DNA of 64,000 nucleotides, taken from the NCBI RefSeq assembly GCF_003663825.1, contig NZ_RCCC01000001.1:2860501-2924500 (forward strand). Reading direction: 5' to 3'. This stretch comes from Acidovorax sp. 106. Its GTDB lineage: Bacteria > Pseudomonadota > Gammaproteobacteria > Burkholderiales > Burkholderiaceae_C. Position 1 is the first letter of the stretch. Each line of letters opens with the position of its first letter. Below, piece after piece: positions 5,564 through 12,737 of this stretch. The translations under genes and the position numbers were made by a program. Under the pieces are notes generated by a model that was not told the origin of the DNA, searched no databases, and was given only the letters and a program-made list of their open reading frames with translations.

Positions 5564-6730
5564 GTGCCTGACCTGTCCAAAATCACCTGTATCGAAGACC
5601 TGCGGGTCGTTGCCCAGCGCCGTGTGCCGCGCATGTTCTACGACTATGCGGACTCGGGCTCGTACACCGAAGGCACTTACCGCTCCAACGAAGCCGACTT
5701 TCAGGGCATCAAGCTGCGCCAGCGCGTGGCAGTCAACATGGAAGGCCGCAGCACCTGCACCACCATGGTGGGGCAGGACGTGGCCATGCCCGTGGCCATC
5801 GCACCCACGGGCCTCACGGGCATGCAGCATGCCGACGGGGAAATCCTGGGGGCCAAGGCTGCCAAGGCGTTTGGTATTCCGTTCACGCTGTCCACCATGA
5901 GCATCTGCTCCATCGAGGACATTGCTGAGCACACGGGCCGTCATCCGTTTTGGTTCCAGGTGTATGTGATGCGCGACCGTGATTTCATCGAGCGCCTCAT
6001 CGACCGCGCCAAGGCGGCCAACTGCTCGGCCCTGCAGCTCACACTGGATTTGCAGATCCTGGGTCAGCGCCACAAGGACATCAAGAACGGGTTGTCGGCG
6101 CCGCCGCGCCCTTCGCTGGCCAACCTTATCAACCTGGCCACCAAGCCGCGTTGGTGCCTGGGCATGCTGGGCACACCACGGCGCAGCTTTGGCAACATCG
6201 TGGGCCACGCCAAGGGCGTGGGCGATATGTCGTCGCTGTCGTCGTGGACGGCCGAGCAGTTCGATCCGCAGCTCAACTGGGGCGATGTGGAGTGGATCAA
6301 AAAGCGCTGGGGCGGCAAGCTGATCTTGAAGGGCATCATGGACGCAGAAGACGCGCGCCTGGCCGTCAACAGCGGCGCTGATGCGCTCATCGTCAGCAAC
6401 CATGGTGGCCGCCAGCTCGATGGCGCCCCCTCTTCGATTGCCGCGTTGCCCCACATTGCAGACGCCGCAGGCAAGGACATTGAGGTGTGGATGGACGGCG
6501 GTATCCGCAGCGGGCAAGACGTGCTCAAAGCCCGTGCACTGGGGGCGCAGGGCACACTGATTGGCCGCAGCTTTCTGTACGGCCTGGGGGCGTATGGCGA
6601 GGCCGGCGTGACCCGTGCGCTGCAGATCATTCAGAAAGAACTGGACATCACCATGGCGTTTTGCGGTCACACCCACATCAACAACGTGGACCGCAGTGTG
6701 CTGTTGCCCGGCACTATTCCTCGCCTTTGA
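5564..6730 (+). CDS. FMN-dependent alpha-hydroxy-acid dehydrogenase (L-lactate dehydrogenase-like)
   Basis: 388 residues from GTG 5564, chosen because GGAG (5553-5556) sits 7 nt upstream; an in-frame GTG at 5516 has no such site. The whole chain is one FMN TIM barrel oxidising a 2-hydroxy acid to the 2-oxo acid. Visible landmarks are FYDYADSGSYTE at the N-terminus, TLDLQILGQRHKDIKNG, the KGI motif, the catalytic His in SNHGGRQLDG (His280) and the phosphate-binding DGGIRSGQDV and GRSFLYGLGA. Closest in type to LldD and other membrane-linked lactate dehydrogenases, but mandelate or glycolate cannot be excluded. No lactate permease or regulator gene lies next to it. Confidence 0.85.
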   Translation: MPDLSKITCIEDLRVVAQRRVPRMFYDYADSGSYTEGTYRSNEADFQGIKLRQRVAVNMEGRSTCTTMVGQDVAMPVAIAPTGLTGMQHADGEILGAKAAKAFGIPFTLSTMSICSIEDIAEHTGRHPFWFQVYVMRDRDFIERLIDRAKAANCSALQLTLDLQILGQRHKDIKNGLSAPPRPSLANLINLATKPRWCLGMLGTPRRSFGNIVGHAKGVGDMSSLSSWTAEQFDPQLNWGDVEWIKKRWGGKLILKGIMDAEDARLAVNSGADALIVSNHGGRQLDGAPSSIAALPHIADAAGKDIEVWMDGGIRSGQDVLKARALGAQGTLIGRSFLYGLGAYGEAGVTRALQIIQKELDITMAFCGHTHINNVDRSVLLPGTIPRL

Positions 6731-6854
6731 CGCGGAGGGCAGGGCGGGGGCGCTGTTGACAAGTCGCCCTCCCATATTTCAGCCTGCGCGCCCCGTTTGG
6801 CGTGGGGTCAGTGCTTTCAAGCCGCAGCCGGGCTGCCGCAGTCCACAGGGCTTG

Positions 6855-7421
6855 TTAAGACGCAGCCTTCCACAGGATGTAGTCGGCCTGGTACTTCACC
6901 ACTTGCTTTTGCCCGGCGTTGCCCGCAGCGCATGCCATGGCTGGGGCTACACCGCCCTGCGTTGCCACGCGCTGGATGTAGGTCACGCCCTGCATGGCGC
7001 CCATGCCCATGGCGGGGTTGGCCTTGACCAGTTGCAAAGGGATGTTGCCTGCACCTGCTGGCGCCACGGCGACCTGTGTGGCTGTGACCTTGGAGCCGTC
7101 GTTGCTCTCCCAAGTGGCAGGCGGGCCAAAGTAGCGGCCAATGGTTTTGCCTGCGCGGTCCATCAGCTTGGCATCTGGCCCCACAAACACCCACTCAAAG
7201 TCGCTGGGCATGTCTTTCTTGGCGCGGCACTCGTAGGTGATGTCGCCCGCACCCACGGTTTCCATGGCAACGCGTTGGCCCGCGGGCACTTGCACCGCTG
7301 CAGGCAGTGTGCTTTGGTTGAATGCGGGTATGGAGGTCATGGGGGCCATCGAGCCGCAGGCCGTCAGGGCGGCGGCTGTGGCCAGCAGGGTCATGGCGAT
7401 CAAAGGGGTGCGTGCTTGCAT
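6855..7421 (-). CDS. DUF3455 lipoprotein
   Basis: 188 residues starting MQARTPLIAMTLL at 7421, with AAGGA a few bases upstream. The N-terminal signal sequence ends in the lipobox LTAC, so the protein is predicted to be lipid-anchored at Cys24. The mature part has the DUF3455 features: a VPAGQRVAMETVGAGDITYEC segment (split here as VPAGQRV and ITYECRAKK), FEWVFVGPDAKLMD and GPPATWESNDGSKV. Function is unknown. It is divergent from the ECF sigma gene, and a promoter motif shared with that gene lies about 110 bp upstream, so it is probably part of the sigma factor's regulon. Confidence 0.8.
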   Translation of the reverse strand: MQARTPLIAMTLLATAAALTACGSMAPMTSIPAFNQSTLPAAVQVPAGQRVAMETVGAGDITYECRAKKDMPSDFEWVFVGPDAKLMDRAGKTIGRYFGPPATWESNDGSKVTATQVAVAPAGAGNIPLQLVKANPAMGMGAMQGVTYIQRVATQGGVAPAMACAAGNAGQKQVVKYQADYILWKAAS

Positions 7422-7531
7422 GGTGCTTCCTTGGGACGGGTTGGGATAGTGCGCACCGAAGTCGTGCTGCAGGCATGGCGGTCCATACGCCCGAGGCGGG
7501 CTGTGCAGCTTTGTTTCCGGTGACCAAGGGC

Positions 7532-7562
7532 TATACGCAGGCTGATGCAGGGTGGATTCAAA
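7532..7562 (-). promoter_or_regulatory. putative ECF promoter of the DUF3455 gene (motif copy 1)
   Basis: On the minus strand the sequence reads TTTGAATCCA, 11 bases, then CCTGCGTATA. The same two blocks with the same 11-base gap occur at 9220-9250, and a close variant at 7618-7647. GAATCC would be the -35 element and CGTAT the -10 element. Confidence 0.7.
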
Positions 7563-7617
7563 AAGTTTTTCTTTCTGAAACGCTCTTTCAAAAGCGATGG
7601 CGCGTGAGCTCGCAGCC

Positions 7618-7647
7618 TTGAATCCAAAGGGGTGCTGCAACCGTATC
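7618..7647 (+). promoter_or_regulatory. putative autoregulatory ECF promoter of the sigma gene (motif copy 2)
   Basis: TTGAATCCA, 11 bases, CAACCGTATC. It matches copies 1 and 3 in both blocks and in spacing, and lies about 105 bp before the sigma start codon. Autoregulation is typical of ECF sigma factors. Confidence 0.65.
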
Positions 7648-7752
7648 CTTGTTGCAGGCATTGGCGGGGTGGGTGATGCACCTGTGCGCCCCAACCCCAC
7701 AGTGCGCGCGGCAGTTGTGCCTGCAACGGTCCATATCCAAGACAATGGGCGC

Positions 7753-8328
7753 ATGAGCACCCTCCACCCCGATCGCGAACTCATGGAACTCATCGACCGC
7801 GTGGCCGCGCAAGACGACTCGGCCCTCAAGGCCCTGTATGAGCGCACCTCATCCAAACTGTTTGGCCTGGCGCTGCGCATCGTGCGCCAGCGCGATGCCG
7901 CCGAGGATGTGCTGCAGGACGCCTTCGTGGCCATCTGGCGCGGGGCGGGAAGCTACCGCGCCTCGCTCAGTCCCCCCATGGCCTGGATGGGGCTCATCGT
8001 GCGCAGCCGCGCTCTGGATGCCCTGCGCAAGCGCACAACCGACCGCAGCGATGTGACCGATGAACTGGACGACCTGCTGTCGGACACGCTGGAGGGCGAC
8101 GGCGCCAACCCCATGGACGTGACGGAGGCCAGCGAGCAAGCCTTTGCCCTGCACCAGTGCCTTGCCAAGCTCGATGGCAAGCAGCGCGAAGTCGTCAGCC
8201 TGGCGTATCTGCGCGACCAAAGCCACAGCGAACTGGCCGAGCAGCTCAAGCTGCCGCTGGGCACCGTCAAGACCTGGATACGGCGTGGGCTGGACCAGTT
8301 GCGCAACTGCATGGCGCGTTACGTGTGA
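7753..8328 (+). CDS. ECF (sigma-70 family) RNA polymerase sigma factor, RskA-linked type
   Basis: 191 residues from ATG 7753; the frame is open upstream but the conserved sigma-2 region begins shortly after this Met. Region 2 contains AAEDVLQDAFVAIWRGAGSY. Region 4 contains LDGKQREVVSLAYLRDQSHSELAEQLKLPLGTVKTWIRRGL (helix-turn-helix), a hallmark of the SigK-like ECF group. An acidic linker joins the two regions. The stop lies 13 bp before the anti-sigma start, so the pair is an operon. Expected to direct transcription from GAATCC/CGTAT promoters. Confidence 0.92.
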   Translation: MSTLHPDRELMELIDRVAAQDDSALKALYERTSSKLFGLALRIVRQRDAAEDVLQDAFVAIWRGAGSYRASLSPPMAWMGLIVRSRALDALRKRTTDRSDVTDELDDLLSDTLEGDGANPMDVTEASEQAFALHQCLAKLDGKQREVVSLAYLRDQSHSELAEQLKLPLGTVKTWIRRGLDQLRNCMARYV

Positions 8329-8341
8329 GAGGCCCGCTGCT

Positions 8342-9127
8342 GTGAATATCACCCAACACCCCGAACTGCTGCAGCGCCTGGCTGCCAGCTACGCCCTGGG
8401 CACGCTGCGCGGTGGCGCACGCCGCCGCTTTGAATCGCTGGCCCGCGAGCACGCTACCGTGCGCGCTGCGGCGCTGGTGTGGCAAACCCACTGGTCCGGT
8501 CTGGCCGAGTTGCAGCCTGGCAACGCGCCTGACCCGGCCGTGTGGGTGCGCATCCACAATCTGGTGCAGGCCGACAAAGCCCAGCATGCCATGGCGGCTG
8601 CACGCGCCGCAGCGCCAAGGCCGGTGGGCTGGTGGCGCACCCTGTGGGTGTGGCGCGGCGCCGCTGCGGCGGGGGCCGTGGCCACCTTGGCGGCGGTGGT
8701 GGTGGGCTTGCAAGCCCATGGCAGCCTGCAAGCGGCCACCAGCGCGCAGATTGCCGCCCTGCAGCAGCAACTGCAAGCGACTCCGCAGATTCAGTACGTG
8801 GCCGTGTTGGCGGACGACAAGGCCGATGCCTCGATGTTGGTGACCTTTGACCCGAAGAACCACCAGTTAGTGTTGCAGCGCGTGGGGGGCTTCCAGGAGG
8901 GCGACGATCAATCTCTGCAGCTGTGGGCGCTGCCTCCGGCGGGCGGCCCACGCTCTTTGGGCGTGCTCGGGCATGAAAAGCTGCTGACCCTGACGGCGGG
9001 CGAACGGGACGTTCAACAGGTTCCTGCACTGGCCATCAGCCTGGAGCCCAAGGGGGGCGTGCCCAGCGCAACAGGCCCCACGGGCCCAGTGCTGTTCAAG
9101 GGGGCGCTCATTCAGCGCATGCTGTAG
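8342..9127 (+). CDS. RskA-family anti-sigma factor
   Basis: 261 residues from GTG 8342, with GAGG 8 bases upstream. The N-terminal cytoplasmic part (about 1-90) has the RskA-type LAASYALGTLRGGARRRFESLA motif that binds the sigma factor. One transmembrane helix follows (about 103-122, AAAAGAVATLAAVVVGL). The periplasmic C-terminal domain ends in SLEPKGGVPSATGPTGPVLFKG, the classic RskA (anti-sigma-K) C-terminal motif. It is predicted to hold the upstream ECF factor at the membrane until an envelope signal triggers release, probably by proteolysis. Confidence 0.9.
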   Translation: MNITQHPELLQRLAASYALGTLRGGARRRFESLAREHATVRAAALVWQTHWSGLAELQPGNAPDPAVWVRIHNLVQADKAQHAMAAARAAAPRPVGWWRTLWVWRGAAAAGAVATLAAVVVGLQAHGSLQAATSAQIAALQQQLQATPQIQYVAVLADDKADASMLVTFDPKNHQLVLQRVGGFQEGDDQSLQLWALPPAGGPRSLGVLGHEKLLTLTAGERDVQQVPALAISLEPKGGVPSATGPTGPVLFKGALIQRML

Positions 9128-9219
9128 CGCGGCGCTGGTGCGGTGGGTGGCTAAGCGGATGGCGATGCGGATGCTGAGGCTCGCCCTGCATGCGGGGCCT
9201 TGGCAAACCGCTGCCCAGG

Positions 9220-9250
9220 TTTGAATCCAGCGGACTACGGCCTGCGTATA
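9220..9250 (+). promoter_or_regulatory. putative ECF promoter of the DUF3034-haemoglobin-cupredoxin operon (motif copy 3)
   Basis: TTTGAATCCA, 11 bases, CCTGCGTATA: identical blocks and spacing to copy 1. It lies 86 bp before the DUF3034 start codon. Confidence 0.7.
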
Positions 9251-9335
9251 AGTATGCATAGGCAAGATGGGCGGCGCTGCCGCCCTTGAAGCAAAGCACC
9301 CTGACCCAGCACCCTAACCCTTGGGAGGACCCCCG

Positions 9336-10304
9336 ATGACGAACTTTCACCCCCGACAGATTCCAGGGCCCCGCGCGGCGGCTGTGGCCTGTGCCCTAGC
9401 CTTGGCTGGTACCTTGGCTGCAGGCGCAGTCCAGGCCGACACGGGCAAACTGCTGCTCACCGGGGGCGTCAGCTCCATCACCGGTAGCGCGGGCGGCGGC
9501 ATCACGCCTTGGGCCGTGATTGGCACCAACGCCACGGAGGGCGAGCTGGGCGTGAGCAGCTACGCCACGCGTGCGGGCACGCAGGACTACGCTCTTACCA
9601 GCTACGGTGTGGCGCTGGGCTACAAAGACCGGGTAGAGCTGTCGCTGGCGCGGCAAGACTTTGACGCCGCGCCTGCCTTTGCGCTGAATGGCATTGCGCC
9701 CTTTGGCGTGGTACCAGGCCAGCACATCCAGATGGACGTGTTGGGCCTGAAGGTGAAGCTGGCGGGCGACGCCATCTTGGACGCCGACACCTGGATGCCC
9801 CAGATTGCCGTGGGCCTGGAGCACAAACAGGTGCGCCCCGGATCGTTGCAATCGGTGCTCGACTTTTTGGGCACCCAAACCAGCGGCACCGATGTGTATG
9901 TGAGCGCCACCAAGCTGCTGCTGGGCCAGGGCCTGCTGCTCAACGGCACGCTGCGCTACACCAACGCCAACCAGAACGGCCTGCTGGGCTTTGGCTCGGC
10001 AGCGCCCGGCAAAAACAGCCGCAGCCTGCAGCCCGAGTTCTCCATCGCCTACCTGCTGCGGCCCAACCTGGCCGTGGGGGCCGAATACCGCTTCAAGCCC
10101 AACAACCTGCAGGCGCTGGGCGCTGCTGCGGGCCTGGGTGCTGCGCTGCGTGAAGATGACTGGAAGGACGTCTTCATCGCCTGGGCGCCCAGCAAGAACG
10201 TGTCACTCACGCTGGCCTACGTCGATCTGGGCCGCATCGTGCCCGGCGTGACCCGCGATCGCCGCCAGACGGGGTATTACCTCTCGGCCCAGGTGGCGTT
10301 CTAG
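9336..10304 (+). CDS. DUF3034 protein, predicted outer-membrane beta-barrel
   Basis: 322 residues from ATG 9336, with GGGAGG 7 bases upstream. A cleavable signal peptide ends near residue 34 (AGAVQA|DTGKLLLTGG). The mature protein starts with LLLTGGVSSITGSAGGGITPWAVIGT, typical of DUF3034. It alternates polar and aromatic residues and ends in a strand-like YYLSAQVAF with terminal Phe, as in outer-membrane barrels. The family's function is unknown. Followed by a signal-bearing truncated haemoglobin and a cupredoxin-like gene on the same strand, which suggests a shared transcript from the ECF promoter. Confidence 0.8.
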   Translation: MTNFHPRQIPGPRAAAVACALALAGTLAAGAVQADTGKLLLTGGVSSITGSAGGGITPWAVIGTNATEGELGVSSYATRAGTQDYALTSYGVALGYKDRVELSLARQDFDAAPAFALNGIAPFGVVPGQHIQMDVLGLKVKLAGDAILDADTWMPQIAVGLEHKQVRPGSLQSVLDFLGTQTSGTDVYVSATKLLLGQGLLLNGTLRYTNANQNGLLGFGSAAPGKNSRSLQPEFSIAYLLRPNLAVGAEYRFKPNNLQALGAAAGLGAALREDDWKDVFIAWAPSKNVSLTLAYVDLGRIVPGVTRDRRQTGYYLSAQVAF

Positions 10305-10388
10305 CCCCCTCTCTAGCTCCCCTCTCGATCCCTTTTTTCCGCTTGCGCTCGCCTTGCCCTCCACGCGACCCCACCTTCGGAGCACACC

Positions 10389-10862
10389 ATGAACATCCCC
10401 CATTCCCCCTGGGTTTTGGCCGCAGCGCTGCTGCTGGCCTTGCCCACTGCCGCTCAGCAAGCCCCCGCCGCTACACCGGTGCCCCGCGCTGCTGTGCCCG
10501 CCCCGTCTGGCCTGTACCAAGCGCTGGGCGAAAAGCCCGGCATTGCCCGGCTGATGGACGACTTTGTGGGCCGTGCCTTCAAAGACCCGCGCATCGGTAA
10601 CCACTTCAAAGACACCAATCCCCAGGCGCTCAAAGAGAGCCTCACGGATCAGATTTGCCAGTTGAGCGGTGGGCCTTGCCAATATGAGGGCGCTGACATG
10701 AAATCGGCCCATGCCGACATGGACATCACCAAGGGCCACTTCAACGCCTTGGTGGAGGTGCTGCAAGCCGCCATGCACGCCCAGGGCATACCGTTCGCTC
10801 AGCAAAACCGCCTCTTGGCGCTGCTGGCGCCCATGCACCGCGACATCATCACCCAGCGTTGA
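10389..10862 (+). CDS. exported group I truncated haemoglobin
   Basis: 157 residues. An N-terminal signal peptide (MNIPHSPWVLAAALLLALPTAAQQ) and a Pro/Ala linker precede a truncated-globin domain starting SGLYQALGEKPGIARLMDDFV. The helix E/F region contains ICQLSGGPCQYEGADMKSAH, with proximal haem ligand His108, and helices G/H follow (ITKGHFNALVEVLQAAM). Most truncated haemoglobins are cytoplasmic; a signal peptide implies periplasmic binding of O2, NO or another haem ligand. The downstream cupredoxin-like gene starts 5 bp after this stop, so the two are probably co-translated. Confidence 0.88.
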   Translation: MNIPHSPWVLAAALLLALPTAAQQAPAATPVPRAAVPAPSGLYQALGEKPGIARLMDDFVGRAFKDPRIGNHFKDTNPQALKESLTDQICQLSGGPCQYEGADMKSAHADMDITKGHFNALVEVLQAAMHAQGIPFAQQNRLLALLAPMHRDIITQR

Positions 10863-10866
10863 CGCC

Positions 10867-11598
10867 ATGAAATTATTGTCTATTGCTATGTTTTTTATAG
10901 CTTCCAGCGCTTGTATATCTAGCGCTGGCGCCGGAAATGTCCAAATCCAGGTGCTGGACCGGGATGGAAAGCCCGTGCCCGATGCCGTGGTGGCGCTCTA
11001 CCCCAGCGCGTCGGGCAGCACTGCGGCGCCCAGCCTGCTGCAGGCCAGCCCCACCATCGAGCAAGAGCGCATGCGCTTTGTGCCTGCCCTCACGGTGGTG
11101 GCGCCGGGCACGACCATCCGCTTCACCAACCAGGACCGCTGGGACCACCATGTGCGCGGCAACGCCGCTGGGCCCGTGCCCACGGGGGCCGCCGCCAATG
11201 AAGGGTTTGAACTGCGCCTGGCAGGCAGGCAAGACGGCCAACCCGCCCAGACGGCCGATGTCACGCTGCGCAACCCCGGCGTGGTCTTGCTGGGCTGCCA
11301 CCTGCACGGCTCCATGCGTGGGCACGTGTTTGTGGCCGACTCGGCCTGGACGTTGAAGACCGACACCGATGGCATTGCCCGCTTTGCCAGCGTGCCCGAC
11401 GGCGCAGCGCAGTTGCGCGTGTGGCACCCCGAGCAGCTGGTGGACTTGCCCCGCAAGGGCCTGCAGGTGCAGGCCGCCCCGTTGCTGGACAAGGTGCAGC
11501 TGAGCGTGGTGCCGCGCCCCCGCCGCCCTGCACCCGCCCCATCGGCCCCTGCCGCAGCACCGGCGGGTGGCGGCACTGCGCCGCACGTGCACTACTGA
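10867..11598 (+). CDS. periplasmic cupredoxin-like protein (methylamine-utilisation-type)
   Basis: 243 residues from ATG 10867. A short signal peptide (about 1-22) is encoded largely by a palindromic repeat copy. The cupredoxin fold has PDAVVALYP, VAPGTTIRFTNQDRWDHHVRG and the copper-ligand stretch GCHLHGSMRGHVFV (Cys, His and Met spaced as C-x2-H-x2-M, with an upstream His in DHH). A carboxypeptidase-regulatory-like segment (TDTDGIARFASVPDGAAQLRVWHP) follows and the C-terminus is Pro/Ala-rich, ending HVHY. This layout is often annotated as methylamine utilization protein. Probably an electron carrier or copper-binding partner of the upstream haemoglobin; this pairing is inferred from position only. 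Confidence 0.75.
   Translation: MKLLSIAMFFIASSACISSAGAGNVQIQVLDRDGKPVPDAVVALYPSASGSTAAPSLLQASPTIEQERMRFVPALTVVAPGTTIRFTNQDRWDHHVRGNAAGPVPTGAAANEGFELRLAGRQDGQPAQTADVTLRNPGVVLLGCHLHGSMRGHVFVADSAWTLKTDTDGIARFASVPDGAAQLRVWHPEQLVDLPRKGLQVQAAPLLDKVQLSVVPRPRRPAPAPSAPAAAPAGGGTAPHVHY
10882..10944 (+). repeat. dispersed palindromic element, copy B (encodes the cupredoxin signal peptide)
   Basis: Shares TGCTAT, ATAGCT, CAGCGCTTG and TAGCGCTGG in the order and spacing of the other copies. It is read in the same frame as copies A and G and gives AMFFIASSACISSAGAGN, which is the hydrophobic core and cleavage region of the signal peptide. Confidence 0.75.
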
Positions 11599-11666
11599 GC
11601 CCCCAACATTCCGCCGCCCCCGCAGGTTGCGCAGGGCGGCTGGGCAGGGCGATGGCGGCTGGGCGA

Positions 11667-12737
11667 TCAGCGCTCGATGGTCTTGTTCCAGCGCGCATTC
11701 CACGCAGGCCGGTTGGCGTTGATGCTGTCCCAGTCCAGCGTCACGGCGTTCTTCATCCACTGGTTGATCTTAGCGACCTGCTCGGCACCATCGCCCGCCA
11801 CAGGGGCCTTGGGGTTGGTGGGGATTTGCGCGCCAAACTGCAGCACGTTGGCTTGGGCCACCGGGCTCAACAAAAACTCTGCCAGCTTCTGCGCCAGCTC
11901 AGGTTCGCTGTTCTTTGCGATCACGCATTGCGCAGTGAGCAGCACCACCGAGCCTTCCTTAGGCTGCGCGTATTCCACCGGTATGCCCTTGGACTTGAGC
12001 GCCGCCACGGCTGTGGGTGTGAGCGGGAAGAGGGCCGCCTCACCCGTCTGCACCATCTCTGAAATCTTGGCCGAGCTGGGGATGTACTCCAGCACATTCG
12101 GTCCAATGGTCTTGGCCCAATTGGTAAAGCCCGGCTCCACGTTTTTGTCGTTGCCGCCCTGGATGCGGTTGAACATCAAGAAGCCGTGCAGCCCGAACGA
12201 CGACGACGGCATGGACTGGAACACCACCTTGCCCTTGTACTTGGGGTCGGCAAAGTCCATCCACGACGTGGGTGCGGCCCAGCCCTTTTCGGCAAACATC
12301 TTGGTGTTGTAGGCAATGCCGGTCATACCCAGGCTCACGCCGCTGGCCAGGTCGTCCTTGAAGCGGGCGGCGGGGAAGATGTCATTGAGCTGGGGGTTGG
12401 GGTGCTGCTTCTCGCACAGGCCCATGCCCATGGCGCGCACCATGATGCCGTCATCCAGAAACATCACATGCATCTGCGGCTTGTCCTTGTTGGCCTGGGC
12501 CTTGGCCAGGATGTCGGACGAGGTGCCGGGCACCACCACCACCTTCACGCCGTGCAGCTTTTCAAACGCCGGGAACACGTACTGCGTGTACGCCTTCTCC
12601 ATGGTGCCGCCGTTCATGCCGATGTACAGCGTCTTGGTCTGCGCGGTGGCAGTGCCTGCGGCGGCCACGGTGGCCAGCGCGGCGGCGGCCACGAGAGCGC
12701 GGCGGGTGCGGCTGGCAAAGCGAGGGGAGAAGGTCAT
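11667..12737 (-). CDS. ABC transporter periplasmic substrate-binding protein (polyamine/opine type)
   Basis: 356 residues from ATG 12737 with AAGGAA upstream; the longer open frame upstream only translates a REP-like repeat (QPFTLSLSK), so it is not the start. A cleavable signal peptide (ALATVAAAGTATAQ) is followed by a family-8-like binding domain: TLYIGMNGGTMEKAY, VVVVPGTSSDILAKAQANK, GVSLGMTGIAYNTKMF and the C-terminal WNKTIER. It is the last gene of a minus-strand operon with the ATPase and two permeases. The substrate is unknown; the neighbouring dehydrogenase genes suggest an imported amine or opine. Confidence 0.85.
   Translation of the reverse strand: MTFSPRFASRTRRALVAAAALATVAAAGTATAQTKTLYIGMNGGTMEKAYTQYVFPAFEKLHGVKVVVVPGTSSDILAKAQANKDKPQMHVMFLDDGIMVRAMGMGLCEKQHPNPQLNDIFPAARFKDDLASGVSLGMTGIAYNTKMFAEKGWAAPTSWMDFADPKYKGKVVFQSMPSSSFGLHGFLMFNRIQGGNDKNVEPGFTNWAKTIGPNVLEYIPSSAKISEMVQTGEAALFPLTPTAVAALKSKGIPVEYAQPKEGSVVLLTAQCVIAKNSEPELAQKLAEFLLSPVAQANVLQFGAQIPTNPKAPVAGDGAEQVAKINQWMKNAVTLDWDSINANRPAWNARWNKTIER

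Follow-up and report, generated by a model that had tools for sequence, protein, structure and literature searches.

A conserved promoter-like motif links a SigK/RskA-type sigma factor pair of Acidovorax to a small regulon probably directed at envelope oxidative stress

Introduction

Which genes does an extracytoplasmic function (ECF) sigma factor encoded beside an RskA-like anti-sigma factor in Acidovorax sp. 106 control, and to what does it respond? The question arises from a stretch of 64,000 nucleotides (contig NZ_RCCC01000001.1, positions 2,860,501 to 2,924,500 of the forward strand; hereafter the window), in which the sigma-rskA pair lies between a divergent gene for a DUF3455 lipoprotein and an operon encoding a DUF3034 protein, an exported truncated haemoglobin and a cupredoxin. 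Judged from sequence comparisons, a small SigK/RskA-type ECF regulon is probably controlled from this locus and would answer envelope oxidative stress in Acidovorax and its relatives. Published systems are cited by PMC accession from excerpts of the papers, and statements about them hold for those excerpts.

One motif precedes the sigma gene and its neighbours

An earlier note on this DNA had claimed that three copies of one bipartite motif, TTGAATCCA-N11-CNNNCGTAT, precede the sigma gene, the lipoprotein gene and the DUF3034 gene, with no other copy in the window. Exact matches were observed at all three places (Table 1) and no further copy was present in the 64-kb window. The gaps from the motif end to the start codon are 106, 111 and 86 bases for the sigma, DUF3455 and DUF3034 genes, respectively. 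The core GAATCC-N15..17-CGTAT was matched three times in the window as compared to 0.04 matches expected, and three or more matches occurred in 0 of 100 shuffles.

The motif is also not frequent at random in the genome, with four exact copies of GAATCC-N16-CGTAT in its single contig of 4,884,083 bp and none in a reversed control. The fourth copy is upstream of a gene for an exported glutathione peroxidase (Gpx), at 82 bp from the likely ATG and 37 bp from the first in-frame ATG. A relaxed pattern (GAATCY-N15..17-CGTA) gave 11 genomic sites as compared to 0 in the control. Six of the seven extra sites are inside open reading frames (ORFs) and the seventh (L223) has no ORF called nearby; they were therefore rejected as further targets and four regulon sites were counted. 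An explanation by sigma-70 was set aside, as no sigma-70-like promoters were found in positions 6700-11750. Rfam searches at gathering thresholds gave no matches in L001, L002 or L004.

Table 1. Predicted promoters and genes of the locus, in window coordinates
Feature	Position	Strand	Evidence
DUF3455 lipoprotein gene	6855..7421	-	PF11937 120.9 bits, cut-off 25; lipobox Cys22, Cys65 and Cys164 invariant in 17/17
Predicted ECF promoter of divergent DUF3455 gene	7533..7561	-	Exact match; divergent copies in relatives precede DUF3455, cytochrome c or ferritin-like genes
Predicted ECF promoter of sigma-rskA, TTGAATCCA-N11-CNNNCGTAT	7618..7646	+	Exact match; motif at most 350 bp upstream of sigma in 59/80 related loci
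ECF sigma factor gene, SigK-like	7753..8328	+	Pfam sigma-70 regions 2 and 4; closest solved structure 4nqw (SigK), 74.5 bits; Cys136 and Cys186 in 81/81
RskA-like anti-sigma factor gene	8342..9127	+	RskA_C 87.7 bits, cut-off 29.4; adjoins sigma in 79/80 loci
Predicted ECF promoter of DUF3034-globin-cupredoxin operon	9221..9249	+	Exact match; DUF3034 downstream of 31/128 sites in 80 loci
DUF3034 predicted outer-membrane beta-barrel gene	9336..10304	+	PF11231 312.9 bits; 12-strand model; nearest folds FapF, OmpG
Exported group I truncated haemoglobin gene	10389..10862	+	PF01152 (Bac_globin) 47 bits; nearest solved HbN; Cys90, Cys97 and His108 in 59/59
Exported cupredoxin-like (type-1 copper) protein gene	10867..11598	+	His94, His95, Cys144, His147 and Met150 in 44/44; Copper-bind marginal, 21.4 bits, cut-off 21.2

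The motif is kept in related sigma loci

Conservation was examined in the best 80 of 415 loci around homologues of the sigma factor, taken from records named Acidovorax, Variovorax, Polaromonas, Rhodoferax or Hydrogenophaga or from metagenome-assembled genomes of the same order or class. Genes downstream of motif sites were called here and below with a simple ORF script, not a gene finder, and the family labels for the 80 loci were taken over from a survey of relatives' sites described below. These loci contained 128 motif sites, 125 of which precede a few gene families within approximately 320 bp, i.e. sigma (59), DUF3034 (31), cytochrome c (15), ferritin-like (10), DUF3455 (6) and DUF4331 (4), with three sites unassigned. 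The sites before the sigma gene were found with a slightly relaxed motif that had no match in a reversed control of 934,250 bp.

The T preceding GAATC was kept in 116/116 sites although it lies outside the search pattern. Scanning of block spacings from 12 to 20 gave 16 (116 sites) or 17 (12 sites) and no other value. Additionally, the site travels with the DUF3034 operon, being found on the opposite strand in L045, L054 and L069 and upstream of the sigma gene in the Hydrogenophaga type. The invariant T, the restricted spacing and the movement of sites with this operon indicate that the motif behaves as a two-block ECF promoter. The proposal of the earlier note that the sigma/RskA pair shares one promoter motif with the divergent lipoprotein gene and the DUF3034-globin-cupredoxin operon is thus supported by conservation and rarity, and we infer that this sigma factor reads this promoter.

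The regulators resemble SigK and RskA

Mycobacterium tuberculosis SigK (4nqw) was the best structural match of the sigma factor and Rhodobacter sphaeroides RpoE, at 66.5 bits, the second. Both SigK cysteines (133/183) align with Cys136 and Cys186, the positions kept in all homologues (Table 1); such a pair occurs in 94% of ECF18, 56% of ECF19 and <2% of sigma factors elsewhere (PMC7509140). Matches above the Pfam cut-offs were obtained for DUF3455, the ECF sigma factor, RskA_C, DUF3034 and Bac_globin. No specific NCBIfam model reached its cut-off and, because the cut-off of the SigK model was among those missed, the sigma factor is termed SigK-like and not SigK. The ChrR cupin (PF12973), at E 0.001, had no match in the whole genome.

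The pair has features of the SigK-RskA systems of M. tuberculosis and Yersinia (ECF18/ECF19), namely a SigK-like sigma factor with two cysteines, an anti-sigma factor with RskA_C and, in relatives, fasciclin targets. A cassette of mpt83 (a fasciclin gene), sigK and rskA with a SigK site is also present in Yersinia (PMC7509140). Unlike in that cassette, the fasciclin genes of Acidovorax sp. 106 lack the motif, the targets are DUF3455, the DUF3034-globin-cupredoxin operon and Gpx, and the NCBIfam SigK cut-off was missed.

Predicted targets beyond the locus point to redox damage

The Gpx gene lies approximately 1.24 Mb from the sigma-rskA pair and encodes a signal-like N-terminus (signal sequences of exported proteins were assigned by eye). 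Downstream of it lies a cluster encoding an amine-oxidase-type flavoprotein, a CMAS cyclopropane synthase and Chalcone_3, MFS_2, DUF3833 and SDR proteins, which might also be read from the Gpx promoter. The Gpx and flavin-oxidase genes overlap in one relative (G131). The gap between them in Acidovorax sp. 106 (L194:3020-3263) holds a long stem-loop and then T's; as a specially stable structure this stem-loop was rejected, being no more stable than shuffles (z -1.54).

A survey of 98 distinct sites in relatives, which are a subset of the listed sites and include some chosen for looking alike between genomes, placed 62 sites before recurring families and 36 before nothing recurring, many of the latter within ORFs. 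The 62 sites precede genes for fasciclin (14), Gpx (10), two DUF4148 groups (7 and 3), sigma (8), DUF3034 (7), DUF4331 (5), cytochrome c (3), two ferritin-like groups (2 and 1), MsrP (1) and DUF3455 (1). The representative of the smaller DUF4148 group is under the Pfam cut-off (22.5 of 27), and the MsrP target was verified at one locus, L161, with two sites of similar appearance in other genomes. In some Acidovorax a small exported DUF4148-like gene is present several times per genome, each time with the motif (L150, L171, L174, L176, L177, L190 and L191).

In Delftia RAY209 a fasciclin gene is among those most strongly induced in root-attached cells, while two DUF3455 genes are approximately 20-fold higher at day 7 than at day 2 on soybean (PMC7725335). 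A regulon serving surface attachment, for instance to roots, instead of oxidative stress would fit this RNA-Seq result. Such a role is very improbable here, as the fasciclin genes of Acidovorax sp. 106 are without the motif (no site at three or fewer mismatches in L225) and were set aside as regulon members, and as the Gpx, MsrP, cytochrome c and ferritin-like targets indicate redox damage, which roots may also cause. The Delftia arrangement, in which a ferritin-like gene neighbours fasciclin, was found in 0/17 fasciclin loci, three of which are overlapping views of the Acidovorax sp. 106 genome.

The DUF3455 lipoprotein and the globin operon

A structure model of the DUF3455 lipoprotein gave no PDB matches at E 0.001 or better. 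The model of the DUF3034 protein, a 12-strand barrel (mean pLDDT 77.2), matched FapF and OmpG at E of approximately 2e-7 with TM values of 0.42-0.48. The exported globin has the Bac_globin fold and the proximal His of group I truncated haemoglobins. A Val aligns with the distal Tyr position of HbN, which we take to be Tyr B10, and the globin thus lacks this feature of an HbN-type nitric oxide dioxygenase. The last protein carries the type-1 copper ligand set (His, Cys, His, Met) with a C-x2-H-x2-M spacing, as in amicyanin. A gap of 4 bp separates the globin gene from the copper-protein gene, and no terminator-like site was found on the + strand from DUF3034 through the end of the copper-protein gene. 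The DUF3034 and globin genes remain linked in two distant genomes (L205 and L206) and, in L206 (G049, a distant genus), a gene for a high-potential iron-sulphur protein (HiPIP; 1455-1745) follows them in place of the Acidovorax copper protein. The globin is thus likely to bind haem in the periplasm and to be paired with a small electron carrier.

The globin and the cupredoxin are the core of another reading, in which the regulon senses and handles envelope haem, copper or nitric oxide. The globin and the type-1 copper protein share an operon and have invariant ligands, and a gene for the copper metallophore BufA2 follows a variant motif, TGCATCC, in one distant genome. The other targets in this genome and in relatives (Gpx, fasciclin, DUF4331, cytochrome c, MsrP and, as a possible target, the cyclopropane-synthase cluster) speak against this reading, the Val at the distal Tyr position weakens a nitric oxide dioxygenase role and the carrier in L206 is a HiPIP and not a copper protein. 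A haem, copper or nitric oxide response is less likely than one to envelope oxidative stress, and we regard it as improbable. The families that follow the motif (fasciclin, Gpx, DUF4331, cytochrome c, ferritin-like and MsrP) and the likeness of the cyclopropane cluster beside Gpx to part of the RpoE singlet-oxygen regulon (PMC7074977) favour oxidative stress.

Elsewhere in the window, a large penicillin-binding-protein-like ORF (147-2690) contains an internal repeat of approximately 12 residues (NGGRASPIAGTL-like), visible in the translation.

Motif, RskA and DUF3034 across the wider family

The strict motif occurred at 84 sites in 24 named genomes as compared to four in the control, with 0 sites in G302. 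A set of 150 genomes from the same GTDB family gave 143 sites as compared to 24 control sites. Genomes of this set with a strong RskA (i.e. a match of at least 150 bits, our own cut; n=33) hold 73 sites and eight control sites, and the other 117 hold 70 sites and 16 control sites. The list of 'weak' RskA proteins was judged by eye among the matches listed, and the Fisher and Mann-Whitney values in these comparisons ignore kinship. DUF3034 was detected in 105 of 299 genomes; with kinship again ignored, 40 genomes have both DUF3034 and a strong RskA, 25 only RskA, 65 only DUF3034 and 169 neither. Upstream of the 105 DUF3034 genes the motif was present in 26 of the 40 genomes with a strong RskA and in 6 of the 65 others, with a reversed control of 0.

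As sites and DUF3034 occur in genomes without a strong RskA, other sigma factors may use the motif or the targets. A rival reading is that another ECF sigma factor reads the motif and that the neighbouring sigma/RskA pair is just one of its targets. Consistent with it are the 70 sites, as compared to 16 in the control, in the 117 genomes without a strong RskA, the close motifs of other ECF systems such as TGATCC..CGTA for Shewanella RpoE2 (PMC4336711) and a ChrR-like cupin gene after a site in one genome (L195). We nevertheless consider it unlikely, since sites cluster at this sigma gene in the related loci, site number rises with a strong RskA and the Acidovorax sp. 106 genome has no ChrR cupin match.

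A variant motif, [TC]GCATCC-N16/17-CGTA, was present in 20 of 80 DUF3034 upstream regions (fetched apart from the other 25); neither the reversed control nor the opposite strand of these regions gave a match. A strong RskA is present in 3 of these 20 genomes. Ten genomes, selected because their DUF3034 carries the variant, had 62 variant sites as compared to 27 in the control. Inspection of 30 variant loci placed 13 before a regulon family, seven of the 13 being DUF3034 by construction and the others DUF4331 (2), ECF sigma (2), ferritin-like (1) and DUF3455 (1). The occurrence of the variant before the same families, mostly without a strong RskA, suggests a rather stable set of targets under a drifting -35 block and regulator, possibly run by sigma factors of more than one type.

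Other genes were noted beside such sites. A BufA2 bufferin-type metallophore gene (L347:1667-1918, G143) lies downstream of the TGCATCC variant, and a copper-linked branch is possible. ChrR-like cupin genes are found just downstream of the motif or its variant in L195:6324-6795 (G142) and in L330 (G030), followed in L330 by an ECF sigma homologue.

Discussion

The preferred reading, a regulon against envelope oxidative stress, can be put as a mechanism. RskA, in the inner membrane, would keep the sigma factor inactive until oxidative damage to the envelope frees it, with singlet oxygen, peroxides or their lipid products as the likeliest agents; proteolysis of RskA as the release step is a guess. 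RNA polymerase would then start at TGAATCC-N16-CGTAT before sigma-rskA, DUF3455, DUF3034-globin-cupredoxin and Gpx, the last of which adjoins the flavin-oxidase/cyclopropane-synthase cluster. The products would protect or repair the envelope, and the exported globin would probably act in redox reactions through its haem, with the copper protein serving it. The evidence for envelope oxidative stress, drawn from the targets and from described regulons, is good but indirect.

Close known systems include the RpoE-ChrR and RpoE2-ChrR regulons (ECF11), which resemble the present one in their promoter blocks, a periplasmic Gpx and, in relatives, fasciclin; they also have counterparts of the cyclopropane synthase, MFS_2/GPH symporter and SDR genes that adjoin Gpx here and may belong to the regulon. 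The RpoE regulon of R. sphaeroides, which is up under photooxidative stress, includes CfaS, two putative cyclopropane fatty acid proteins, a GPH symporter, an SDR and a fasciclin (PMC7074977). Shewanella RpoE2 drives the periplasmic PgpD from TGATCC..CGTA and protects against peroxide and paraquat (PMC4336711). Unlike these systems, the Acidovorax locus has RskA instead of ChrR, and neither a globin operon nor DUF3455 is named for ECF11 in the excerpts (PMC7074977, PMC4336711). The R. capsulatus RpoE/'ChrR' pair is closer to SigK/RskA and lies beside a Gpx operon, all being induced by singlet oxygen (PMC7074977). It thus resembles the present pair in linking SigK/RskA-like regulators to glutathione peroxidase; Gpx adjoins the pair there, whereas it is far off in Acidovorax sp. 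106. Homologues of RSP_1087-1091 are reported absent in R. capsulatus (PMC7074977), whereas Acidovorax sp. 106 has genes resembling this set. As a related RpoE-ChrR system of Stenotrophomonas serves superoxide tolerance and not singlet oxygen (PMC11832516), the exact oxidant is not readable from homology.

The earlier note had interpreted the locus as an 'envelope haem/copper or NO/redox response' and as not described. The redox part of this interpretation stands; the haem, copper or nitric oxide part is made less likely by the range of targets and by the Val of the globin. The claim of novelty does not hold as stated, because a SigK/RskA-like pair is of a known kind and the targets overlap RpoE singlet-oxygen and peroxide regulons (PMC7074977, PMC4336711). 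No description of this particular sigma/RskA regulon was found in the open-access literature searched, and a search on the motif string returned only apparently unrelated papers.

Several observations weigh against an RskA-controlled oxidative stress regulon. SigK leads R. sphaeroides RpoE by only 8 bits, and neither the NCBIfam SigK model (PRK09646; 129.3 of 226 bits) nor the generic anti-sigma model (85.3 of 100 bits) was reached. No site lies directly before the sigma gene in 21 of the 80 related loci; seven of these have a site approximately 2.3 kb upstream, before a DUF3034 operon reading towards sigma, nine have a divergent copy only and five have no site before sigma, divergent or up to 3 kb upstream. 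The numerous sites in family genomes without a strong RskA, the 65 of 105 DUF3034 genomes that also lack one and the motif-free fasciclin genes count in the same direction, as does the separation of Gpx from the cyclopropane cluster by approximately 245 bp with a stem-loop in this genome. Finally, the SigK-RskA complex of M. tuberculosis is stabilised by a disulfide and releases SigK on reduction (PMC7509140), which argues against a simple oxidation switch in the sigma factor.

An evolutionary account can be offered tentatively. The SigK/RskA-like pair of these Burkholderiales may have taken over the singlet-oxygen and lipid-peroxide targets that RpoE-ChrR controls elsewhere and added a new extracytoplasmic globin redox chain, with the -35 block drifting from TGAATCC to TGCATCC between clades while the targets stay. 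The added chain might, with similar caution, consist of the DUF3034 outer-membrane barrel, an exported truncated haemoglobin with a disulfide and a small electron carrier that can be exchanged, being the cupredoxin here and the HiPIP in a distant genus.

We judge the conserved ECF regulon to be real. Regulators of this kind are known, whereas the targets include both known and new ones; the latter are DUF3455, DUF3034, a type-1 copper protein and an exported globin in which a Cys pair is invariant. The findings place DUF3034 and DUF3455, and in relatives also DUF4331 and DUF4148, in a functional setting. They make two questions testable, namely the signal of Gram-negative SigK/RskA-like pairs and the role of an exported truncated haemoglobin, and they suggest that sensor modules have been swapped while the envelope-protection genes under them stayed much the same.

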